Under the pieces are notes generated by a model. The model was not told where the DNA came from. It ran no database searches and worked only from the letters and a program-made list of their open reading frames with translations. A stretch of DNA of 64,000 nucleotides, from the NCBI GenBank assembly GCA_902571865.1, contig CACGDO010000007.1:1-64000 (forward strand). Direction: 5' to 3'. This stretch comes from an uncultured Alphaproteobacteria bacterium. Its GTDB lineage: Bacteria > Pseudomonadota > Alphaproteobacteria > HIMB59 > GCA-002718135. This document shows, in pieces, positions 1 through 41,443 of the stretch. A program made the position numbers and the translations under genes. The first letter of the stretch is position 1, and each line of letters starts with the position of its first letter.

Positions 1-876
1 GAGCCTATAATTATTGAAGATAAAGATTTAAAAATAGAAGGAAATACAAAACTTAATTTTACTGAAAATAGTTTTATATATATTAAGAATGGAAATTTGA
101 AAATAAATGAAGATAAAAATAAGAATGTAAATAATTTAACAATTCTACAATCTGTAAATAATGATTGGCTAGGAATATACGTTCAAAATAATAATTTTTA
201 TGAAAAATCAATAATTAATAATGCAATAATTAGAGATACGAAAAGTTTTAATCATAAATTATTTAAACTCATGGGTGGGGTAAATTTTTTTAAAACTGAT
301 GTTGAAATAAATAATCTCAAAATTGATAATTCTTTTTCAGAAGATCAAATAAATTTTATTAATTCTAATTTTATTATTAATAACTCAACTTTTCTAAATT
401 CTTATTCAGATTCAATAGATAGTGATTTTTCATATGGAATTATTAAAAACACTAATTTTAATAATATAAATGGTGATGCAATAGATACTTCTGGCTCTAA
501 AATTAAACTAAAAAATATTAAAATAAATAATGTTTACGATAAAGGGTTATCAATTGGGGAAAAAAGTAATGTAAGAGCAGAAAGTTTATTTGTTGTTAAT
601 AGTGGAGTTGGTGTTGCAATAAAAGATTCATCCAATTTAAATTTAAAAAACTTTTCAAGTGAAAATGCTATAATTGCAGATATATTATCTGTTAATAAGA
701 AGAATTTTTTTGGAAATTCTGAAGCAATAATTTATACAATAAATGAATTTAACGAAAAAATATTTCTAATTGGTCATGGTAACAAAATATACCTTAATGA
801 TAATTTGTTAGAAACTCAATCAATTGATCCAAAAGAACTATATAAACTTGAAAGAATGATAAAAAATGCAATATAG
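1..876 (+). CDS. Parallel beta-helix surface protein, C-terminal part (5' end outside window)
   Basis: The reading frame is open from base 1, so this is the 3' end of a longer gene. What is visible (about 291 residues) is dominated by Asn/Ile-rich repeats of the form hydrophobic-x-N-x-N/S (IINNSTF, IIKNTNF, LKNIKI, LNLKNFSSEN), typical of right-handed parallel beta-helix proteins of the pectate-lyase/NosD fold. No catalytic residue can be assigned. The next gene, a VTC-domain protein, overlaps it by 11 bases. In other bacteria VTC-domain genes often sit beside CotH-kinase genes, so the missing N-terminus could carry a CotH domain; that is an inference and cannot be seen here. A role in cell-surface or polymer assembly fits the glycosyltransferases downstream. 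Confidence 0.7.
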   Translation, partial: EPIIIEDKDLKIEGNTKLNFTENSFIYIKNGNLKINEDKNKNVNNLTILQSVNNDWLGIYVQNNNFYEKSIINNAIIRDTKSFNHKLFKLMGGVNFFKTDVEINNLKIDNSFSEDQINFINSNFIINNSTFLNSYSDSIDSDFSYGIIKNTNFNNINGDAIDTSGSKIKLKNIKINNVYDKGLSIGEKSNVRAESLFVVNSGVGVAIKDSSNLNLKNFSSENAIIADILSVNKKNFFGNSEAIIYTINEFNEKIFLIGHGNKIYLNDNLLETQSIDPKELYKLERMIKNAI

Positions 877-1504
877 GTATGAATTAAAGTTTCCAATTAG
901 GAAAGATCAGATTCATTTGGTAAATAATTGGATTGACTCAAACAAGTTTATAAAAAATCATCATCCTGAAAGAGAAATTAATTCTTGTTACTATGATACC
1001 CCTTTTTACAAAAATGCTAATGATAATATTGCGGGAATATCGAGAAGATTAAAACATAGATCAAGATGGTATGACGATTTAGAAAATATTTATTTTGAAA
1101 TAAAAATAAAAAAGGCAACTCTTGGTTCTAAACTGAAATGTAAACTAGAGAATTATAATATTTTAACAAAAAAATTATCAATTAATAATTTTATTAATAA
1201 TAAAGAATATTATTATAAATTTTTAGCTAATACTAAATTGTTTCCAATTGTTCATATCAAATACCTTAGAAATTATTATATCCATAATAATATTAGAATT
1301 ACTCTAGATCATAATATTAAATATAAAAATTTAAAATCTAATAATAATTTCATTAAAGATAATTTAATTCTGCTTGAAATTAAATTTGATAAAATTTATT
1401 TAAATGATGCAAAGAATTTTTTTAAAACGTTTCCATTCAGGGCAAGAAGAAATAGTAAATATTTACGTAGCTTATCATTATTAAAAATTGCAAGTTATAT
1501 ATAA
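866..1504 (+). CDS. VTC domain (polyphosphate polymerase-like, CYTH/TTM fold) protein
   Basis: A 212-residue protein with the layout of the VTC domain. It has an early strand with alternating acidic/basic residues (YELKFPI, residues 5-11), a Tyr-Asp-Thr segment (CYYDTPF), a basic strand (RRLKHRSRWY), a second E-x-K strand (FEIKIKK), a late LEIKF strand and a terminal basic RARRNSKY. These charged strands line the tunnel that binds polyphosphate or nucleotide triphosphate in the family. Bacterial stand-alone VTC proteins usually lack a defined substrate. The ATG lies inside the upstream beta-helix gene (11-base overlap), suggesting translational coupling; the next gene starts one base after the stop. 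Family assignment is good, function uncertain. Confidence 0.75.
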   Translation: MQYRYELKFPIRKDQIHLVNNWIDSNKFIKNHHPEREINSCYYDTPFYKNANDNIAGISRRLKHRSRWYDDLENIYFEIKIKKATLGSKLKCKLENYNILTKKLSINNFINNKEYYYKFLANTKLFPIVHIKYLRNYYIHNNIRITLDHNIKYKNLKSNNNFIKDNLILLEIKFDKIYLNDAKNFFKTFPFRARRNSKYLRSLSLLKIASYI

Positions 1505-1505
1505 A

Positions 1506-3797
1506 ATGAAAAAAATAATAGTAATTTCTAATCAAGCATATTCCCTTATTAACTTCAGAGGTGATCTTCTCAAGCTTCTTGTTTCAAAAAATTTAAAAAT
1601 TTATTGTTTTGCCCCTGATTATGATAATATTTTAAAAAAAGAAATTTTAGATATTGGCTGTATTCCAATTGATTATAGATTAAATAGAAGTTCAATTAAT
1701 CCATTTACTGAATTAGTAAATTGTATACGTTTATTTTTTTTAATTAAAAAAATCAAACCAGATTTGATATTTTCGTACTCAATTAAGCCAGTAATTTATG
1801 GATCTTTAATCTCATATTTTTTAAATATTCCAAATACCTTTTCATTAATTGAGGGGCTTGGATATATTTTTACAAATACAAAAGATAATAGAATATCTAC
1901 AAATTTTTTTGTTAAATTTATAGTAGTACAATTATATAAATTCTCTTTAAAATGTAATAAAAAAATCTTTTTTTTAAATAAAAGTGATATTTATGAGTTT
2001 CAATCAAAAAAACTAGTATCAATTGATCAAACATATTTTTTAGATGGAATTGGTTTGGATTTAAGTTATTTTAAATACACAAAACCAGAAATTAATAAAA
2101 AAGAATTTATTTTTTTATTTATAGGCAGATTATTAAAAGAAAAGGGTGTTTATGAATTTATATCTGCTGCTAGAAAAATTAAGGAACATTACCCAAATGT
2201 TAAATTTATGGTTGTTGGTAATACAGATAAAAATCCAGGTACAATACCTTCTTACCAAATAGAGAAATGGAAAAATGAAGGAATAATAGAATGGATTAAA
2301 TTTACAAAGGATGTACGTCCATATATTCAAAAAGCTTCTGTTTTCGTTTTGCCTTCATATTATAGAGAAGGTTTGCCAAGAGTTATACAAGAAGCTATGG
2401 CCATAGGTCGTCCAATAATAACTTGTGATTCAGTTGGTTGTAGAGAAACAGTTGTAAATAGCAAAAATGGTTATTTAGTCAAAATGAGAAATGTAGATGA
2501 TTTGATTGATAAGATGAAAATATTTTTAAATAAGCCAGAACTAATTAATAAAATGGGTCTTGAAAGTAGGATAATGGCTGAAAAAAGATTTGATGTTCAT
2601 AAAATTAACTCACAAATTTATAAAATATTAAATAATAGATATCAAAATAATAGAAAAACTATTTTCATTATATCCAATCAGTCTTTTTCTCTTATTAATT
2701 TTAGGATTTCTTTAATGAAATTATTACATAATAATGAAATGGATGTTTATGCATTAGCACCTGATTACAATGAAGTACATTTTCAAAAATTAAAGGATAA
2801 TAATATTAACTTTATTAATTATAAATTAAATAGATCATCAATAAATCCCTTAACAAATTTATTGAACTTTTTCAGTTTATTTTTTTTAATAAAAAAAAAC
2901 AAACCAGATTTAATTTTATCTTATTCTATTAAACCAGTTATTTACGGTTCCTTAATTTCATATTTAGTAAAAATTCCTAAATCTTTTTCATTGATTGAGG
3001 GTCTTGGCTATATCTTTACATTCAATTCAAATAAAAACAATTTTAAAAATAATTTTTTTAGAAATATGCTTAGGTTTATCGTTATAAATATGTATAAATT
3101 TTCATTACCTTATAACAGTAAAGTTTTCTTTTTAAATAAAAGCGATATAAATGAATTTAATAAAAGAAAATTAGTATCTTCTAAGCAAACTCAATTAATA
3201 GATGGTATTGGAGTTGATTTATCATATTTCTCTAAACAAATAAAAATTACTGATAAAAAAACAATTAATTTCTTATTTATGGGAAGGTTATTAAGGGAAA
3301 AAGGTGTTTATGAATTTATTGAGGCCGCTATCAAAATTAAAAAATTAAATTTAGATGCCTCATTTACTATAGTTGGAAATACTGACAAAAATCCTGGATC
3401 TATTCCTCTTAAGAAAATACAGGAATGGGAAAAAAATAAAATTATAAAATGGGTTAGATTTGCAGATGATGTTAGACCATATTTGCAAGATTCATCTGTA
3501 TTTGTACTTCCATCCTATAGAGAAGGTCTTTCAAGAAGTATTCAGGAAGCTATGGCAATTGGAAGACCTATAATTACATGCGACTCAATAGGTTGTAGAG
3601 AAACAGTACAAAATGGAATAAATGGTTATTTGGTTAAGGTTCAAGATTCTAATGATTTAGCAGAAAAAATGAAAATATTTATACAAAAAAAACAAATTAT
3701 TAGTCGAATGGGTACGGAAAGTAGGTTAATGGCTGAGGAAAGATTTGATCAAAATAAAATAAATAAAATATTTTTAGAAAATCTTAATTATGGTTGA
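1506..3797 (+). CDS. Tandem-duplicated (two-domain) family 4 glycosyltransferase
   Basis: A single open frame of 763 codons holding two complete copies of a GT4 (GT-B fold) glycosyltransferase: copy 1 at about residues 1-380, copy 2 from about 383 to the end. Both begin with II-x-ISNQ-x-(Y/F)-SLINFR, both contain RSSINP, LIEGLGYIFT, FLNKSDI and GVYEFI, and both keep the E-x7-E motif (REGLPRVIQEA and REGLSRSIQEA). Normal GT4 enzymes are 350-400 residues, so this is a head-to-tail duplication with no stop or ATG at the joint. An in-frame ATG at 1488 would overlap the previous gene; I prefer 1506 because family proteins begin MKKIIVIS. It likely adds one or two sugars to a lipid-linked glycan, given the WecA-like gene downstream. 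Confidence 0.88.
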   Translation: MKKIIVISNQAYSLINFRGDLLKLLVSKNLKIYCFAPDYDNILKKEILDIGCIPIDYRLNRSSINPFTELVNCIRLFFLIKKIKPDLIFSYSIKPVIYGSLISYFLNIPNTFSLIEGLGYIFTNTKDNRISTNFFVKFIVVQLYKFSLKCNKKIFFLNKSDIYEFQSKKLVSIDQTYFLDGIGLDLSYFKYTKPEINKKEFIFLFIGRLLKEKGVYEFISAARKIKEHYPNVKFMVVGNTDKNPGTIPSYQIEKWKNEGIIEWIKFTKDVRPYIQKASVFVLPSYYREGLPRVIQEAMAIGRPIITCDSVGCRETVVNSKNGYLVKMRNVDDLIDKMKIFLNKPELINKMGLESRIMAEKRFDVHKINSQIYKILNNRYQNNRKTIFIISNQSFSLINFRISLMKLLHNNEMDVYALAPDYNEVHFQKLKDNNINFINYKLNRSSINPLTNLLNFFSLFFLIKKNKPDLILSYSIKPVIYGSLISYLVKIPKSFSLIEGLGYIFTFNSNKNNFKNNFFRNMLRFIVINMYKFSLPYNSKVFFLNKSDINEFNKRKLVSSKQTQLIDGIGVDLSYFSKQIKITDKKTINFLFMGRLLREKGVYEFIEAAIKIKKLNLDASFTIVGNTDKNPGSIPLKKIQEWEKNKIIKWVRFADDVRPYLQDSSVFVLPSYREGLSRSIQEAMAIGRPIITCDSIGCRETVQNGINGYLVKVQDSNDLAEKMKIFIQKKQIISRMGTESRLMAEERFDQNKINKIFLENLNYG

Positions 3798-4953
3798 TAC
3801 AAAAAGGTTAGATTTTTCAAATTATTATTTACCTACACTTATTTTAATAAAAATTTTTTTAACATTTTTCTATTTAAATATTTATGATAATTTTTCTTCA
3901 ATTGGAGATGCAAGAGGGTATTTGCGTAGATATTTAGTACTAGATATTAATGCATACTTTCCACACATATTAACCAATAGATCTCATTTTGTAGAAACTA
4001 TTTATGCATTTTCTAATACTTTATTTTCTAATATCATTACCCCATATATTTTTTCAATTTTATCAATAATCATAATTTGGAATACGTGCAAAGTGTATTT
4101 TTTAAATTCAAGTAAAATAAATTTTTATTTATTCTTGATCATTATTTTTAGTCCAAGTTTTGCTTTATGGACCAGTGTACCATCAAAGGAGTTAATTACA
4201 GTTACGTTGTCAATTTATATGGTAAGCTGTTTAGTAAAAATATTGGTTAAAGAAAAGATTAATTTTTTATTATTTCTACTAGTAACATTAATTTTTGCAT
4301 ATATACGGCCGAACTATTTTTTAGCTTATTTTATTTTTTTATCTATTATTATAATAAAAATTTATTTTTTAGATCGAATTTGTATAAGGTATAAAATTAA
4401 AATAAGTAAAAATTATTATATTTTATTATTAGTAACGAGTATTATTTCTTTATTTTTTTTATTAAGATTTTCGGATAATTATATAATTCAAAAAATTGAA
4501 TTAATTATTTATACTTCCTATCATATGTTTTATGCATTTGATGATGTTTCTACAAGTATGAGAAATAAATATATCCAATGGAATGATTATAATGATTTTT
4601 TTAAATATATAGTTTTTGGATCTTTTGTTTCTTTTTCAGGCCCTACGATTGAAGAAATTATGTACAGACCTATTTTTGTTATATATTTCATAGAATCTTT
4701 AATAATTAATTTAATAATTATTTATTTATTTGTATCATTAATAAGCTTAAATAAATTTATACAAAATTTTTATTTTATTTATTTTTTTGGTTTTTTCTTG
4801 TGTTTTATTATAGCTTTAATAACTCATTATCCTTTAGGAATTTTTAATCTTGGATCTTCATTACGTTATAAGCAAAATTTATTAGCATTAATGATTTTTT
4901 TACCGTATATGCTCCTATGTTATAATTTTAATAAAACTGCTTCACATCAATGA
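3790..4953 (+). CDS. Polytopic membrane protein, possible polysaccharide polymerase or GT-C enzyme
   Basis: This is a 387-residue protein with about nine to ten strongly hydrophobic segments and short polar loops. An early loop contains GDARGYLRRY and a middle loop contains SVPSKELI followed by a membrane segment and YIRPNYF. It has no motif I can tie to a named family with certainty. Size, topology and position between a glycosyltransferase and a WecA-like phosphosugar transferase fit a Wzy/EpsG-type polymerase or a lipid-linked GT-C glycosyltransferase. The acidic GDA loop after the first membrane helix would suit the GT-C option. It overlaps the upstream gene by 8 bases and the downstream gene by 4, so translational coupling is likely. 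Confidence 0.6.
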   Translation: MVDTKRLDFSNYYLPTLILIKIFLTFFYLNIYDNFSSIGDARGYLRRYLVLDINAYFPHILTNRSHFVETIYAFSNTLFSNIITPYIFSILSIIIIWNTCKVYFLNSSKINFYLFLIIIFSPSFALWTSVPSKELITVTLSIYMVSCLVKILVKEKINFLLFLLVTLIFAYIRPNYFLAYFIFLSIIIIKIYFLDRICIRYKIKISKNYYILLLVTSIISLFFLLRFSDNYIIQKIELIIYTSYHMFYAFDDVSTSMRNKYIQWNDYNDFFKYIVFGSFVSFSGPTIEEIMYRPIFVIYFIESLIINLIIIYLFVSLISLNKFIQNFYFIYFFGFFLCFIIALITHYPLGIFNLGSSLRYKQNLLALMIFLPYMLLCYNFNKTASHQ

Positions 4954-5942
4954 TTTTTATTGCCCCTTTAGTATTTTTTATATGCTATTTTTTGTTAAAT
5001 AATATTGCTAAATATTATGGACTTTATGACAAAAATGAATTTCAGAATAATAAAAATATCATACCTCTAACTGGAGGAATTTATTTTTATATATCTCTAA
5101 TAACTGTTTCTCTATTTTATAGTTCAGACAAGTATTTATATTTAATGACAATAGGTTCAGTAGGAATGTTTTTAATGGGTCTAATTGATGATTTAAAAAA
5201 TATCAGTTTTAGATCAAGATTTATTTTTCAAATTTTATTTGTTTTTTTGTATATAATATATTTTGATTTATTTATTTTAGATTATGGATTTTTTGTTCTC
5301 AATGACAGTTTTATAGTATTTTCATTAATTTTTACTACTTTTGCAGTAGTTGGCTTAACTAATGCATTCAATTTTATAGATGGTGTAGATGGTTTATCAT
5401 CGAGCCTTTTCTTTATGGCGATACTATTTTTAAAAATCTATACAGTTTTATTTGATAGTAATACCTATTTTTATGAATTAGATATAATTTTACTTTTAAT
5501 CATTAGTTTCATTTTTATTAATAAAAAAATCACAAATTTAAAACAAATTTATCTTGGTGATTCTGGAAGTATGCTAATAGGATTTTTGATTTCAATATAT
5601 TTGATATATTTTTCAAATAACTTAAATATTATTTCACCCACTATAGTTTACTGGTTTGTTGCTGTTCCTATTTTCGATTTTTTTTCTGTAATTTTTATTC
5701 GTATAATAAATAAAAAAAATCCGATGGTTGGTGACAAATATCATTTTCATCATTTTCTTGTTTATAAAGGTTATTCAAATAATATAGTATTATTAATAAT
5801 GATTTTCCTATCCATAATGTTTGCAACATTTGGAATTTTTCTTGATTTCTATGTGAATAATTTTTTAAATTTTATTTTATTTGTAATTTTTATAATTTTA
5901 TCGATAGTTATAAGGGTAAGTCAAATTAAAAACTTAAATTAA
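4950..5942 (+). CDS. WecA/MraY-family undecaprenyl-phosphate sugar-1-phosphate transferase
   Basis: This integral membrane enzyme of 330 residues and about ten helices transfers a sugar-1-phosphate from a UDP-sugar to undecaprenyl phosphate, starting assembly of an O-antigen or exopolysaccharide unit. Family motifs are in the expected order: PLTGG near residue 40, the Asp pair in GLIDDLKN, NAFNFIDGVDGL, LGDSGSMLIGF and the late HFHHFL (H-x-H-H) motif that distinguishes WecA-type enzymes from MraY. Its ATG overlaps the stop of the upstream membrane protein (ATGA). Its 3' end overlaps the convergent aminotransferase gene by 9 bases. The exact sugar cannot be told from sequence. Confidence 0.88.
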   Translation: MIFIAPLVFFICYFLLNNIAKYYGLYDKNEFQNNKNIIPLTGGIYFYISLITVSLFYSSDKYLYLMTIGSVGMFLMGLIDDLKNISFRSRFIFQILFVFLYIIYFDLFILDYGFFVLNDSFIVFSLIFTTFAVVGLTNAFNFIDGVDGLSSSLFFMAILFLKIYTVLFDSNTYFYELDIILLLIISFIFINKKITNLKQIYLGDSGSMLIGFLISIYLIYFSNNLNIISPTIVYWFVAVPIFDFFSVIFIRIINKKNPMVGDKYHFHHFLVYKGYSNNIVLLIMIFLSIMFATFGIFLDFYVNNFLNFILFVIFIILSIVIRVSQIKNLN

Positions 5943-7181
5943 GTCTAGTGCTTCAATAAGCTTTTTAACATCATGATCGGAATTATAATGTGTTAAACTT
6001 AATCTAACAACACCATCATTTGTATTAATCCCTAATGCCTCTAAGCATCTCCATGCATAAAAATTATCATTTCTTGTTGCAATATTTTTTGAGATTAAAA
6101 TTTGTGATATTTCTTTTGAAGAAATTTTGTTTGAAGTAAAAGAAAATGTTGGCGCACGATTCTTATCTTTGATATAACTTTTACCAATTAATTTTAAATC
6201 TTTTCTATTTCTTAAATATTCTAAAATACGATTTCCTAAATTTTCTTCATGTATTGAGATTAATTTATTTACTTTTTTTATTTTTTCTAAAATAGATAAT
6301 TTATTATCTTTATAATGATGATTGTAAAGATCTTCAAAATACTCATAAATTCCAACAAGAGAAGCTAACTCTTCATGATTAGGTCCTCCAGGATTGATAG
6401 TATATGGATACTGTCCTTCTAAAAAAGTATGATTTTGATTAGGAAGTTTTTGAAGAATTTCTTCTTTTCCATAAAGTAAAGCCAAATGAGGTCCATAAGT
6501 TTTGTATAAAGAGAAAGTATAGAAATCGACATCTATATCTTTAACATTTGGAAATCCATGAGGAGCATACGATACCCCATCACCAATTACAAAAATGTCA
6601 TTTTCATGCGCAATATTACATATTTTTTTTAAATTATTAACACTACCAACAATATTCGAGCAATGTGTTACAGCTATAATTTTTGTATTATCGGTAATTA
6701 ATTTTTTTAGATCTTCAATTTCTAATTCTGCATTATCTAAGTTTATTTTCCATTCTTTTATATTTGCTCCTATCTCTTTTAATCTTATCCAGGGGCTAAT
6801 ATTTGCTTCATGATCTTGATTTGTAACAATGATTTCATCACCAGGTTTAACAAAAGCTTTAAGTGCGTTTGATAATACATATAAATTTATTGATGTTGAT
6901 CCACCAATTAGAATTTCATTCTGTTTAGCATTTATAATTTGTGAAAATAATTTAATTGCTTTGTCCATTTCTTCACCAGCTATTCTAGACATTTCATATT
7001 CAGCATAAGGTTGGACTTTACAAGTTGTCAAAAATTTATTCATTTTTTCTATGACTTTTTTTGGCACATAACTACCGCCAGCATTTTCAAAAAAATGCCA
7101 ATTTTTACAAATAGTGTCATCAAATGATGGAAATTGAGATCTTACAAAATCTATATCTAAGCTAATATTTTCCAATGACAA
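5934..7181 (-). CDS. Class V aminotransferase, cysteine-desulfurase-like
   Basis: This 415-residue PLP enzyme belongs to the aspartate aminotransferase fold, class V. The N-terminus has FFENAGGSYVP (substrate and phosphate region). The cofactor-binding aspartate and nearby His lie in DGVSYAPHG (Asp201), and the Schiff-base lysine is Lys227 in FSLYKTYGPH. It resembles the cysteine-desulfurase-like group (TIGR01976 type) rather than IscS/SufS: I see no Cys-containing active loop, and no suf or isc gene is nearby. The substrate is unknown. It is convergent with the polysaccharide genes and divergent from the methyltransferase gene, with an AT-rich 89-base gap upstream. Confidence 0.82.
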   Translation of the reverse strand: MSLENISLDIDFVRSQFPSFDDTICKNWHFFENAGGSYVPKKVIEKMNKFLTTCKVQPYAEYEMSRIAGEEMDKAIKLFSQIINAKQNEILIGGSTSINLYVLSNALKAFVKPGDEIIVTNQDHEANISPWIRLKEIGANIKEWKINLDNAELEIEDLKKLITDNTKIIAVTHCSNIVGSVNNLKKICNIAHENDIFVIGDGVSYAPHGFPNVKDIDVDFYTFSLYKTYGPHLALLYGKEEILQKLPNQNHTFLEGQYPYTINPGGPNHEELASLVGIYEYFEDLYNHHYKDNKLSILEKIKKVNKLISIHEENLGNRILEYLRNRKDLKLIGKSYIKDKNRAPTFSFTSNKISSKEISQILISKNIATRNDNFYAWRCLEALGINTNDGVVRLSLTHYNSDHDVKKLIEALDLI

Positions 7182-7270
7182 TTTATCTTAAAATAATTAT
7201 TAAATTTAAATTATTATATATTAAATAACCAATAATACTATAAAATTATCAATTTAATAAATGTTATGTT

Positions 7271-39604: not shown

Positions 39605-40588
39605 ATGAAACTAATTCCTGAATGGCATGAAAACCAATATTGTTTGATTGCTTGGCCATGTAATAAAGATCTTTATGGTAAAATTATTAATAAGGCTAGA
39701 GATGAAGTTGCAAATGTAATTAATGAAATTGCAAAAACTGAGCAGGTTATTGTTTTGTCAAATAAAGAAGACATTAATGAAATTCAAAATAAAACTGATC
39801 ATAAAAATATAGATATTATAGAATGTAAATTAGATGATTCTTGGATGCGAGATATTGCACCAATTTTTTATAATGAAAATGAAAAATTAAAATCAATTAG
39901 TTTTGAATTTAATGGTTATGGAAAATATCCAGATTATTTAAATGATAATAAAATATCAAAATTTATTTCAAACTATTTAAATATCCCAACAAAAATTTCT
40001 GACTTAGTTATTGAAGGAGGAGCAATAACTTATGATGATAAAAAAAATTTATTTAGCACTAAAAATGTAATATTTAATAAAAATAGAAAACAAAAACATA
40101 ATAGTGAATATATTATTAAAGAATTAAAGCTCTTGTTTGACTTAAATTATATTTTTTTATTTGAAAATGGACTAATGGAGGATGATACAGATGGTCATGT
40201 CGATAATTTATTATGTCCGATAGGAAAAAATCAATATTTAATTGCCACAACTCACAAATTAGATCCTAATTATGAAATATTAGAAAAAAACAAAGCTGAT
40301 CTTATTAAATTTTTTAGAGATACTAATCAGACATTTGATTTAATTGAAGTTCCTTTACCTACAAGAAAAAAGATTAATAATAAGAATATTATTAGTTCAT
40401 ATATAAATTTCTATTTCAGTAAAAATAAAATTATCTTACCTAAATTCAATGTTAAGGAAGATAATGAGGTAAAATTAATTTTTGAAAAGTTATTCCCAAA
40501 TCGAGAAATTATGATGTTGGAAACAGAAAATATAAATTATGGTGGTGGAAATATTCATTGTATAACAATGAATGTACCAAAAATATGA
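39605..40588 (+). CDS. aguA: Agmatine deiminase
   Basis: This 327-residue guanidine-modifying enzyme converts agmatine to N-carbamoylputrescine and ammonia. Family motifs are LIAWPCNKDLYG at the start, DDSWMRDIAPIF (substrate-binding Asp and Arg), FEFNGYGKYPDYLND (a lightly changed N-x-W-G-x-K region, with Tyr in place of Trp), IEGGAI, TDGHVDNLLCPI with the catalytic His and Asp, and the nucleophile Cys in YGGGNIHCITMNVP at the extreme C-terminus. It overlaps the next gene (N-carbamoylputrescine amidase) by 4 bases (ATGA), so they form the agmatine-to-putrescine pathway. Confidence 0.9.
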   Translation: MKLIPEWHENQYCLIAWPCNKDLYGKIINKARDEVANVINEIAKTEQVIVLSNKEDINEIQNKTDHKNIDIIECKLDDSWMRDIAPIFYNENEKLKSISFEFNGYGKYPDYLNDNKISKFISNYLNIPTKISDLVIEGGAITYDDKKNLFSTKNVIFNKNRKQKHNSEYIIKELKLLFDLNYIFLFENGLMEDDTDGHVDNLLCPIGKNQYLIATTHKLDPNYEILEKNKADLIKFFRDTNQTFDLIEVPLPTRKKINNKNIISSYINFYFSKNKIILPKFNVKEDNEVKLIFEKLFPNREIMMLETENINYGGGNIHCITMNVPKI

Positions 40589-41443
40589 AAATAAAAGTAG
40601 CAACATCACAATTCAAGGCTATTAAAGGAGACTTTGACGCTAATTTAAATAAAGCAATTAGTTTAGTTGAAAAAGCATCAAATGAAAATGTTGATATTTT
40701 ACTTCTGCAAGAATTATTTCAAGATTATTATTTTTGTTCAACAAAAAACAATAAATTTTTTGATCTTGCAATTGATTTTCCTTCTAATCCAATGTTCGAA
40801 AAATTATCTAATATTTGTGAAGATAAAAAGATTTCATTACCAATTAGTTTTTTTTCAAAAAAAGGAAAATAAGTTTTTTAACTCTTTAGTTATGATTGAT
40901 TCTTTCGGTAAAATAAGTGAAGTCTATAATAAATCTCACATCCCTGAAGGGCCTGGATATAATGAGAAGTATTATTTTGAAAAAGGCAACACAGGCTTTA
41001 TGGTTTTTGACACCCCTCTGGCAAAAGTTGGCTGTGCAATTTGTTGGGATCAGTGGTTTCCTGAATGTGCAAGAATTTTAACGTTGAAAGGTGCAGATTT
41101 AATTTTTTATCCATCAGCAATTGGCTCTGAGCCACACATGCCTGAATTAAATTCAAAGGATCATTGGATTAATACAATGGTAGGACATGCTGCTGCAAAT
41201 CAAATCCCTATAGTAACTTCGAATAGAATAGGGAAGGAGGTCGAAGCTGATATTGAATTAAATTTTTATGGTAATTCTTTTATATTGGACCATCTTGGAA
41301 ATGTAATAAATCGTATGAATGATAAGGATGAGGGAATAATAACTGCAACTTTAGATTTGTTAATTTCAAGAGAATATAGAAAATTATGGGGTAACTTTAG
41401 AGACAGAAGGCCTGATCTATATAAAAAAATTCTCGATTTTTAA
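40585..41443 (+). pseudogene. aguB: N-carbamoylputrescine amidase with a frameshift in a T8-C-A7 run
   Basis: The gene starts at ATG 40585, overlapping aguA, and reads KIKVATSQFKAIKGDFDANL... with the nitrilase Glu in LLLQELFQ, but stops at 40872. The rest continues in the next frame (NKFFNSLVMIDSFG...) with the catalytic Lys in YNKSHIPEG and the Cys in GCAICWDQWFPE, ending at 41443. Removing one base near 40848-40865 (eight T, C, seven A, GG) restores a product of about 285 residues, the normal AguB length. All three catalytic residues are intact across the two frames, so this is a recent break, a sequencing or assembly error, or slippage on the homopolymers. Confidence 0.85.

Follow-up and report, generated by a model that had tools for sequence, protein, structure and literature searches.

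The window, as the whole stretch of 64,000 nucleotides under analysis is called here, carries close to its first base a gene for a fused glycosyltransferase (GT). The gene is a single open frame encoding 763 aa, which begins with an ATG at 1506 and meets its first stop at the frame end (Table 1). Its start lies one base past the stop that closes the upstream gene, and its end overlaps the next gene; the fused gene is therefore part of a tight operon. The gene order was the same in the window genome (G000) and in two other genomes of the genus (G016 and G109): DUF4956, a 901-aa protein, a VTC-domain protein, the fused GT, a membrane protein and a WecA-like polyprenyl-phosphate sugar-1-phosphate transferase, then a class-V aminotransferase on the opposite strand. 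Window positions 1–876 hold the end of the 901-aa gene, the DUF4956 gene and most of the 901-aa gene being beyond the contig end. Contig C7 ends at window base 1, so whatever precedes these genes in the glycan locus lies elsewhere in the window genome. Further GT genes are present upstream at this locus in G016 and G109. Among the genes read (window 1–7200, G016 and G109, the rest of the G000 locus being beyond the contig end), there were no WbdD or Wzm/Wzt export genes. A promoter and terminator scan gave nothing above shuffled expectation.

Two side observations concern neighbouring genes. The DUF4956, 901-aa and VTC-domain proteins form an operon module beside polysaccharide genes (L022 632–4645; window 1–876 and 866–1504). 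No Pfam family matched the 901-aa protein, whose end resembles a right-handed beta-helix and which we take to be CotH-like. Elsewhere in the window (40558–41443), what is presumably a nitrilase/amidase-like gene follows a presumed agmatine-deiminase-like gene and consists of two overlapping ORFs in different frames; it looks frame-broken, whether in reality or by sequencing error.

Table 1. Features of the operon and the fused gene, in window positions, and of the second tandem family, in positions of its own loci (L)
Feature	Position	Strand	Evidence and remarks
VTC-domain protein, same operon	866..1504	+	PF09359
Fused PglA-like GT4-GT4 gene, 763 aa	1506..3797	+	Open frame; full-length orthologues in G016 and G109 at 76–77%
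Domain A, full GT-B/GT4	1506..2654	+	Pfam; model pLDDT 87.6; PglA 8dqd Z 44.3
A: E116, CcPglA E113 equivalent	1851..1853	+	Alignment
A: R208 and K213; R208 aligns with CcPglA R203	2127..2144	+	Both invariant in 37/37 singles
A: E-x7-E motif, E288...E296; P291, CcPglA P281 equivalent	2367..2393	+	Alignment
Domain B, full GT-B/GT4	2655..3794	+	Pfam; model residues 384–763; PglA 8dqd Z 44.0
B: E498, CcPglA E113 equivalent	2997..2999	+	Alignment
B: R594 and K599, equivalent R/K pair	3285..3302	+	Alignment
B: E-x7-E motif, E673...E681; S676, CcPglA P281 equivalent	3522..3548	+	Alignment
Multi-spanning membrane protein, polymerase/EpsG-like by appearance	3790..4953	+	No Pfam match; conserved in G016 and G109
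WecA-like polyprenyl-phosphate sugar-1-phosphate transferase, likely acceptor maker	4950..5942	+	PF00953; TIGR02380 146.6 bits vs cut-off 326
Class-V aminotransferase, conserved flank of variable glycan island	5934..7181	−	PF00266; in 79/102 genomes
Second tandem GT4 family	L048 3327–5597; L049 4065–6335 (−); L060 6445–8730		Genomes G081, G108, G111

Two glycosyltransferase domains in one chain

The product of the fused gene is confirmed to be two complete PglA-like GT-B/GT4 domains, head to tail with a short linker. Half A (residues 1–383) and half B (384–763) aligned with 59% identity over 379 aa (E 1e-149), and each half alone matched PF00534 (Glycos_transf_1) and PF13692 (Glyco_trans_1_4) far above cut-off, as well as PF13477 (Glyco_trans_4_2). 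These results bear out the reading in an earlier note of two full GT4 domains in one frame. PglA-type GTs are single-domain proteins of ~375 aa; the fused protein instead has the two GT modules per chain that mark WbdA-type enzymes. The same note had reported no stop or ATG at the joint, and indeed the frame is open throughout and the window genome has no in-frame ATG, GTG or TTG in the 80 nt that precede the joint or the 45 nt that follow it, so that domain B is not obviously made separately there. In G016 and G109 an in-frame ATG lies 24 nt ahead of the joint. The sequence blocks listed as common to both halves (SNQ..SLINFR, RSSINP, LIEGLGYIFT, FLNKSDI and E-x7-E) were all recovered in each; they are not of equal length throughout, since A has SYYREGL and B SYREGL, a one-residue difference. 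Third codon positions have diverged as widely as had been said, the synonymous sites between the halves being saturated (pS 0.61). Those between G000 and G016 are saturated as well (pS 0.57–0.62), and the duplication is therefore not datable by dS.

The integrity of the halves was measured against 37 single-domain relatives, a column being called conserved when one residue occupied it in at least 80% of them. All 37 conserved columns are retained in half A and 36 in half B, which lacks only the start Met; among the singles the number ranges from 28 to 37 (median 34). Omega between G000 and G016 was 0.11 for A and 0.15 for B, and between G016 and G109 it was 0.11 for both. Judged by omega, the two halves are shown to be under similar purifying selection in the three genomes. 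A dead second half was rejected on the conserved columns together with omega. The E-x7-E motif and the R/K diphosphate-binding pair of CAZy GT4 and retaining GT-B enzymes are present in both halves.

Structural models gave the same picture for each domain. Both half models have the GT-B fold, with two Rossmann domains per catalytic unit, and the PDB entries that match them best are GT-B enzymes of the GT4 type. First among the matches listed, by sequence and by model, was Campylobacter concisus PglA (CcPglA; 8dqd/8dvw/8dvz), with sequence E values of 5e-39 for A and 7e-42 for B. VIA-align fitted half A to 8dqd at an rmsd of 2.3 over 360 aligned residues and residues 384–763 at an rmsd of 2.3 over 357, with Z ~44 in each case; the next structural entries stood at Z ~35. 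The positions of PglA R203, R282 and E113 are kept in both halves. The earlier note had proposed modelling to see whether both UDP-sugar sites are intact; A and B both model as PglA and retain every conserved donor-site and catalytic column. AlphaFold scored half A alone at pTM 0.85 and the full protein at pLDDT 83.5 and pTM 0.54; because of this last value, the full model gives two good domains and no readable mutual placement of them.

The halves differ in a patterned way. A site was counted as a fixed difference when it was constant within A and within B across the three genomes and unlike between them. Such differences made up 17 of 36 informative sites in residues 1–48 (19 shared) and 37 of 206 in the rest to residue 360 (169 shared). 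The clustering in the first 48 residues (Fisher p 0.0003) is to be read as a lead, the segment having been picked after seeing the data, and the contrast between whole N and C domains was weak (35/94 vs 19/94, p 0.06). Around the E-x7-E motif, 3 of 44 sites were fixed differently: P291/S676, V293/S678 and V310/I695. The first of these is the CcPglA Pro281 position, where each of the three genomes has Pro in A and Ser in B. The 37 singles have 28 Pro, 8 Ser and 1 Ala there. In five singles aligned separately all were Pro, so the Ser in B is probably derived. Pro281 adjoins R282, which was mutated by the depositors of one CcPglA structure (8dvz, R282V; 8dvw carries R203Q). In PglA, Pro281 reportedly steers the enzyme to GalNAc over GlcNAc, and P291 and S676 align with this residue of donor preference. 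At the CcPglA E113 position, all six halves from the three genomes have Glu, as do 4 of the 37 singles. Glu113 is said in the PglA structure paper to bind the donor and to be peculiar to PglA; E116 and E498 are its equivalents in A and B.

Origin and distribution of the fusion

Within the genus, the full fused gene was found in at least 3 of 102 genomes, a lower bound because the genomes are incomplete (those listed are 53–96% complete). The other two, G016 and G109, are the independently assembled records AG-337-F02 and AG-891-E15 of uncultured Alphaproteobacteria; their fused genes have no stops, and the proteins are 76–77% identical to the window protein over the whole length. That the fusion is an assembly or stop-loss artefact joining two separate tandem genes has next to no chance of being right and is regarded as ruled out: although the window starts at a contig end of a 23-contig draft assembly, the same fusion stands in three assemblies, the joint in the window genome has no start codon nearby, and both halves are under constraint.

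A tree was built of 43 rows, comprising the three A halves, the three B halves and the 37 singles. The A halves formed one clade and the B halves another, and A and B were joined at 100/100 apart from the singles; a single duplication and fusion therefore preceded the split of the three genomes. The tree, the conserved columns, the constraint and the models agree with the earlier proposal of an old tandem duplication with two apparently intact active sites, and on such comparisons of sequence we consider it shown that one PglA-like gene was duplicated in tandem and its copies fused in frame to give the present gene. Recent gene conversion in the window gene was rejected, as the longest exact DNA run between the halves is 17 nt in G000, 26 in G016 and 21 in G109.

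Wider scans, in which the top 2–3 candidates per genome were scored, found no fusion outside the genus, the other matches covering one half only. Matches were obtained in 14 of 289 genomes of the class (at 1e-50 or better) and in 28 of 398 of the phylum (at 1e-60 or better), the window's own genome being included in both counts. Two class matches with long frames, G242 (1045 aa) and G244 (766 aa), were read as single GTs. Long frames were read in the four of the 27 other phylum matches that had 761–801 aa, frames of 461–525 aa being set aside: in two, a lone GT occupies part of the long frame; the third is a single GT whose stop is read through, and the fourth a single GT adjoining an unlike GT gene. 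The plasmid and phage matches read among those listed (25 of 496 plasmid records, 10 of 16 phage matches) were single genes of ~370–420 aa, each matching both halves. Viral sequences matched the fused query at 27% only, and a contig scan with narrow patterns returned 3 loci. The plasmid-borne GT4 of small E. coli and Shigella plasmids, which we take to be the WbbP/Rfp galactosyltransferase, falls in the nearest clade (41% to the fused query, 43% to half A) and has a single domain in contrast to the two fused here; nothing on it was found in open-licence PMC.

Proposed function of the fused enzyme

We consider it probable that the fused gene makes a bifunctional, retaining GT of the PglA/EpsD kind, which would take over from a WecA-like enzyme and make two transfers in succession during the building of a surface sugar chain. 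The candidate for the WecA-like enzyme is encoded two genes downstream and, its score being below the equivalog cut-off, would tentatively be assigned the loading of HexNAc-phosphate onto undecaprenyl phosphate. One domain would then add a second sugar to Und-PP-HexNAc, analogous to the PglA and EpsD steps, and the other would add a third sugar to that product without its release from the membrane surface. Either domain could act first, the order of A and B being left free. On this proposal the acceptor side (the first 48 residues) would have been re-tuned between A and B, with the donor core nearly unchanged save for the Pro-to-Ser change. Because that change falls at the reported GalNAc/GlcNAc preference position of PglA, the two added sugars would be related but may differ. 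The fusion would set a 1:1 ratio of the domains and may channel the lipid-linked intermediate.

Known systems offer partial parallels. According to PMC5792488, PglA takes Und-PP-type acceptors, GlcNAc included, and PglH is a GT with one active site able to add several sugars, for which reason the presence of two domains is no proof that two linkages are made. PglA itself has one domain of ~377 aa, whereas here two are fused and half B has Ser at the Pro281 position. EpsD of B. subtilis, to which the fused GT is likened by description, is PglA-like and second-step, acting on Und-PP-diNAcBac, according to PMC10653937, and is single-domain. WbdA (E. coli O9a, K. pneumoniae O3) is, according to PMC11231755 and PMC5529442, a dual-module GT with a different linkage made by each module, which makes too strong the earlier statement that GT4 enzymes act singly and that no such build is described. 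The likeness to WbdA is again by description; WbdA differs in being a mannosyltransferase polymerase that has WbdD as its partner and belongs to an ABC-transporter pathway, the operon part read here having no WbdD-like gene. We take WbdA, too, to belong to CAZy family GT4. Dual-module bacterial GTs are thus already known, and the PglA type of the present one appears to be the new part, no PglA-type dual enzyme having been found in the open-licence PMC literature on tandem or dual GT4 enzymes.

Three other assignments of the domains were weighed. Both might perform the same single transfer, the fusion merely doubling dosage or tethering the enzyme to the membrane. The near-alike donor cores and the match of both domains to the same PglA structures are in keeping with this, but the long-kept fixed differences clustered in the N-terminal 48 residues, and the Pro/Ser difference adjoining the donor site in each of the three genomes, make it unlikely. 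Duplicated enzyme domains commonly end with one catalytic copy and one that serves as scaffold, regulator or membrane dock. Such a fate has a rather small probability here, since neither half has lost a conserved column, the start Met of B aside, omega is alike, and E-x7-E, the R/K pair and the PglA-type Glu are in both. Finally, the domains might add non-adjacent sugars, for instance at different stages of one repeat unit; the step order is not set by sequence, and the additional GTs upstream in G016 and G109 leave room for it. We think this improbable, as both halves are PglA-type with Glu at the E113 position, a group that we take to be early-step enzymes on Und-PP-monosaccharide. Two successive transfers by one chain remain our preferred reading.

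A second tandem family in the same island

Another fused GT4-GT4 of 756–761 aa was found in 3 of the 102 genus genomes (Table 1), and single relatives of it at 36–40% in three further genomes. Like the window gene, it is a head-to-tail GT4 pair (~757 aa) in the same genomic island, but it belongs to another GT4 subfamily and to a separate clade. In a tree of its N-terminal parts the A halves formed one clade and the B halves another, apart from family 1; this tree includes the single L077, which may separate the A from the B halves. As placed by the trees, the second tandem GT4 is of separate origin from the window fusion. Its halves share exact DNA tracts of 293, 241 and 244 nt over the E-x7-E core in the three genes, with N-terminal parts at 42–50% protein identity; compared from genome to genome, the tract has 80–93% protein identity. 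Repeated gene conversion would be the simplest reading, and repeat collapse in the draft assemblies could instead account for the identical cores.

The location of the GTs was followed at 35 loci, 34 from the genus scan plus G111. The aminotransferase flank lay within 20 kb on the same contig at 31 and on another contig at 2, and was not listed at the remaining 2. Since 31 of 35 loci are near this flank, the single GTs and both fused families share one variable glycan island. The search for single copies in related genomes, advised in the earlier note, turned up single GTs in the same island besides the fusions.

Taken tentatively, and with rather less confidence than the two-step function itself, one hypervariable island of this streamlined marine genus may have gained head-to-tail GT4 fusions twice, each a disaccharide-adding enzyme with diverging acceptor halves. 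The donor sites of family 2 would be kept identical by gene conversion, so that the same sugar is added twice, and the Pro-to-Ser change in the donor loop of family 1 would give two different sugars. If true, this would be an evolutionary series from one GT to a two-step enzyme, duplication followed by fusion being a plausible route to bifunctional polysaccharide synthases. To our knowledge, it is rare for one locus to offer a clear series in which single, fused-diverged and fused-converted forms are all represented; the present forms come from close relatives and can be mapped on a solved structure, that of PglA. Should both halves be active, the pair would allow a test of which few residues set acceptor recognition at the first step apart from that at the second, and GalNAc-type apart from GlcNAc-type donors. 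The case bears on surface-glycan variation in ocean bacteria, on which we infer that phage pressure is likely to act. The genus also holds, in G014 (L051 2854–5016), a two-GT chain of a third kind, 720 aa long and with two GT4-type domains that are unlike each other.
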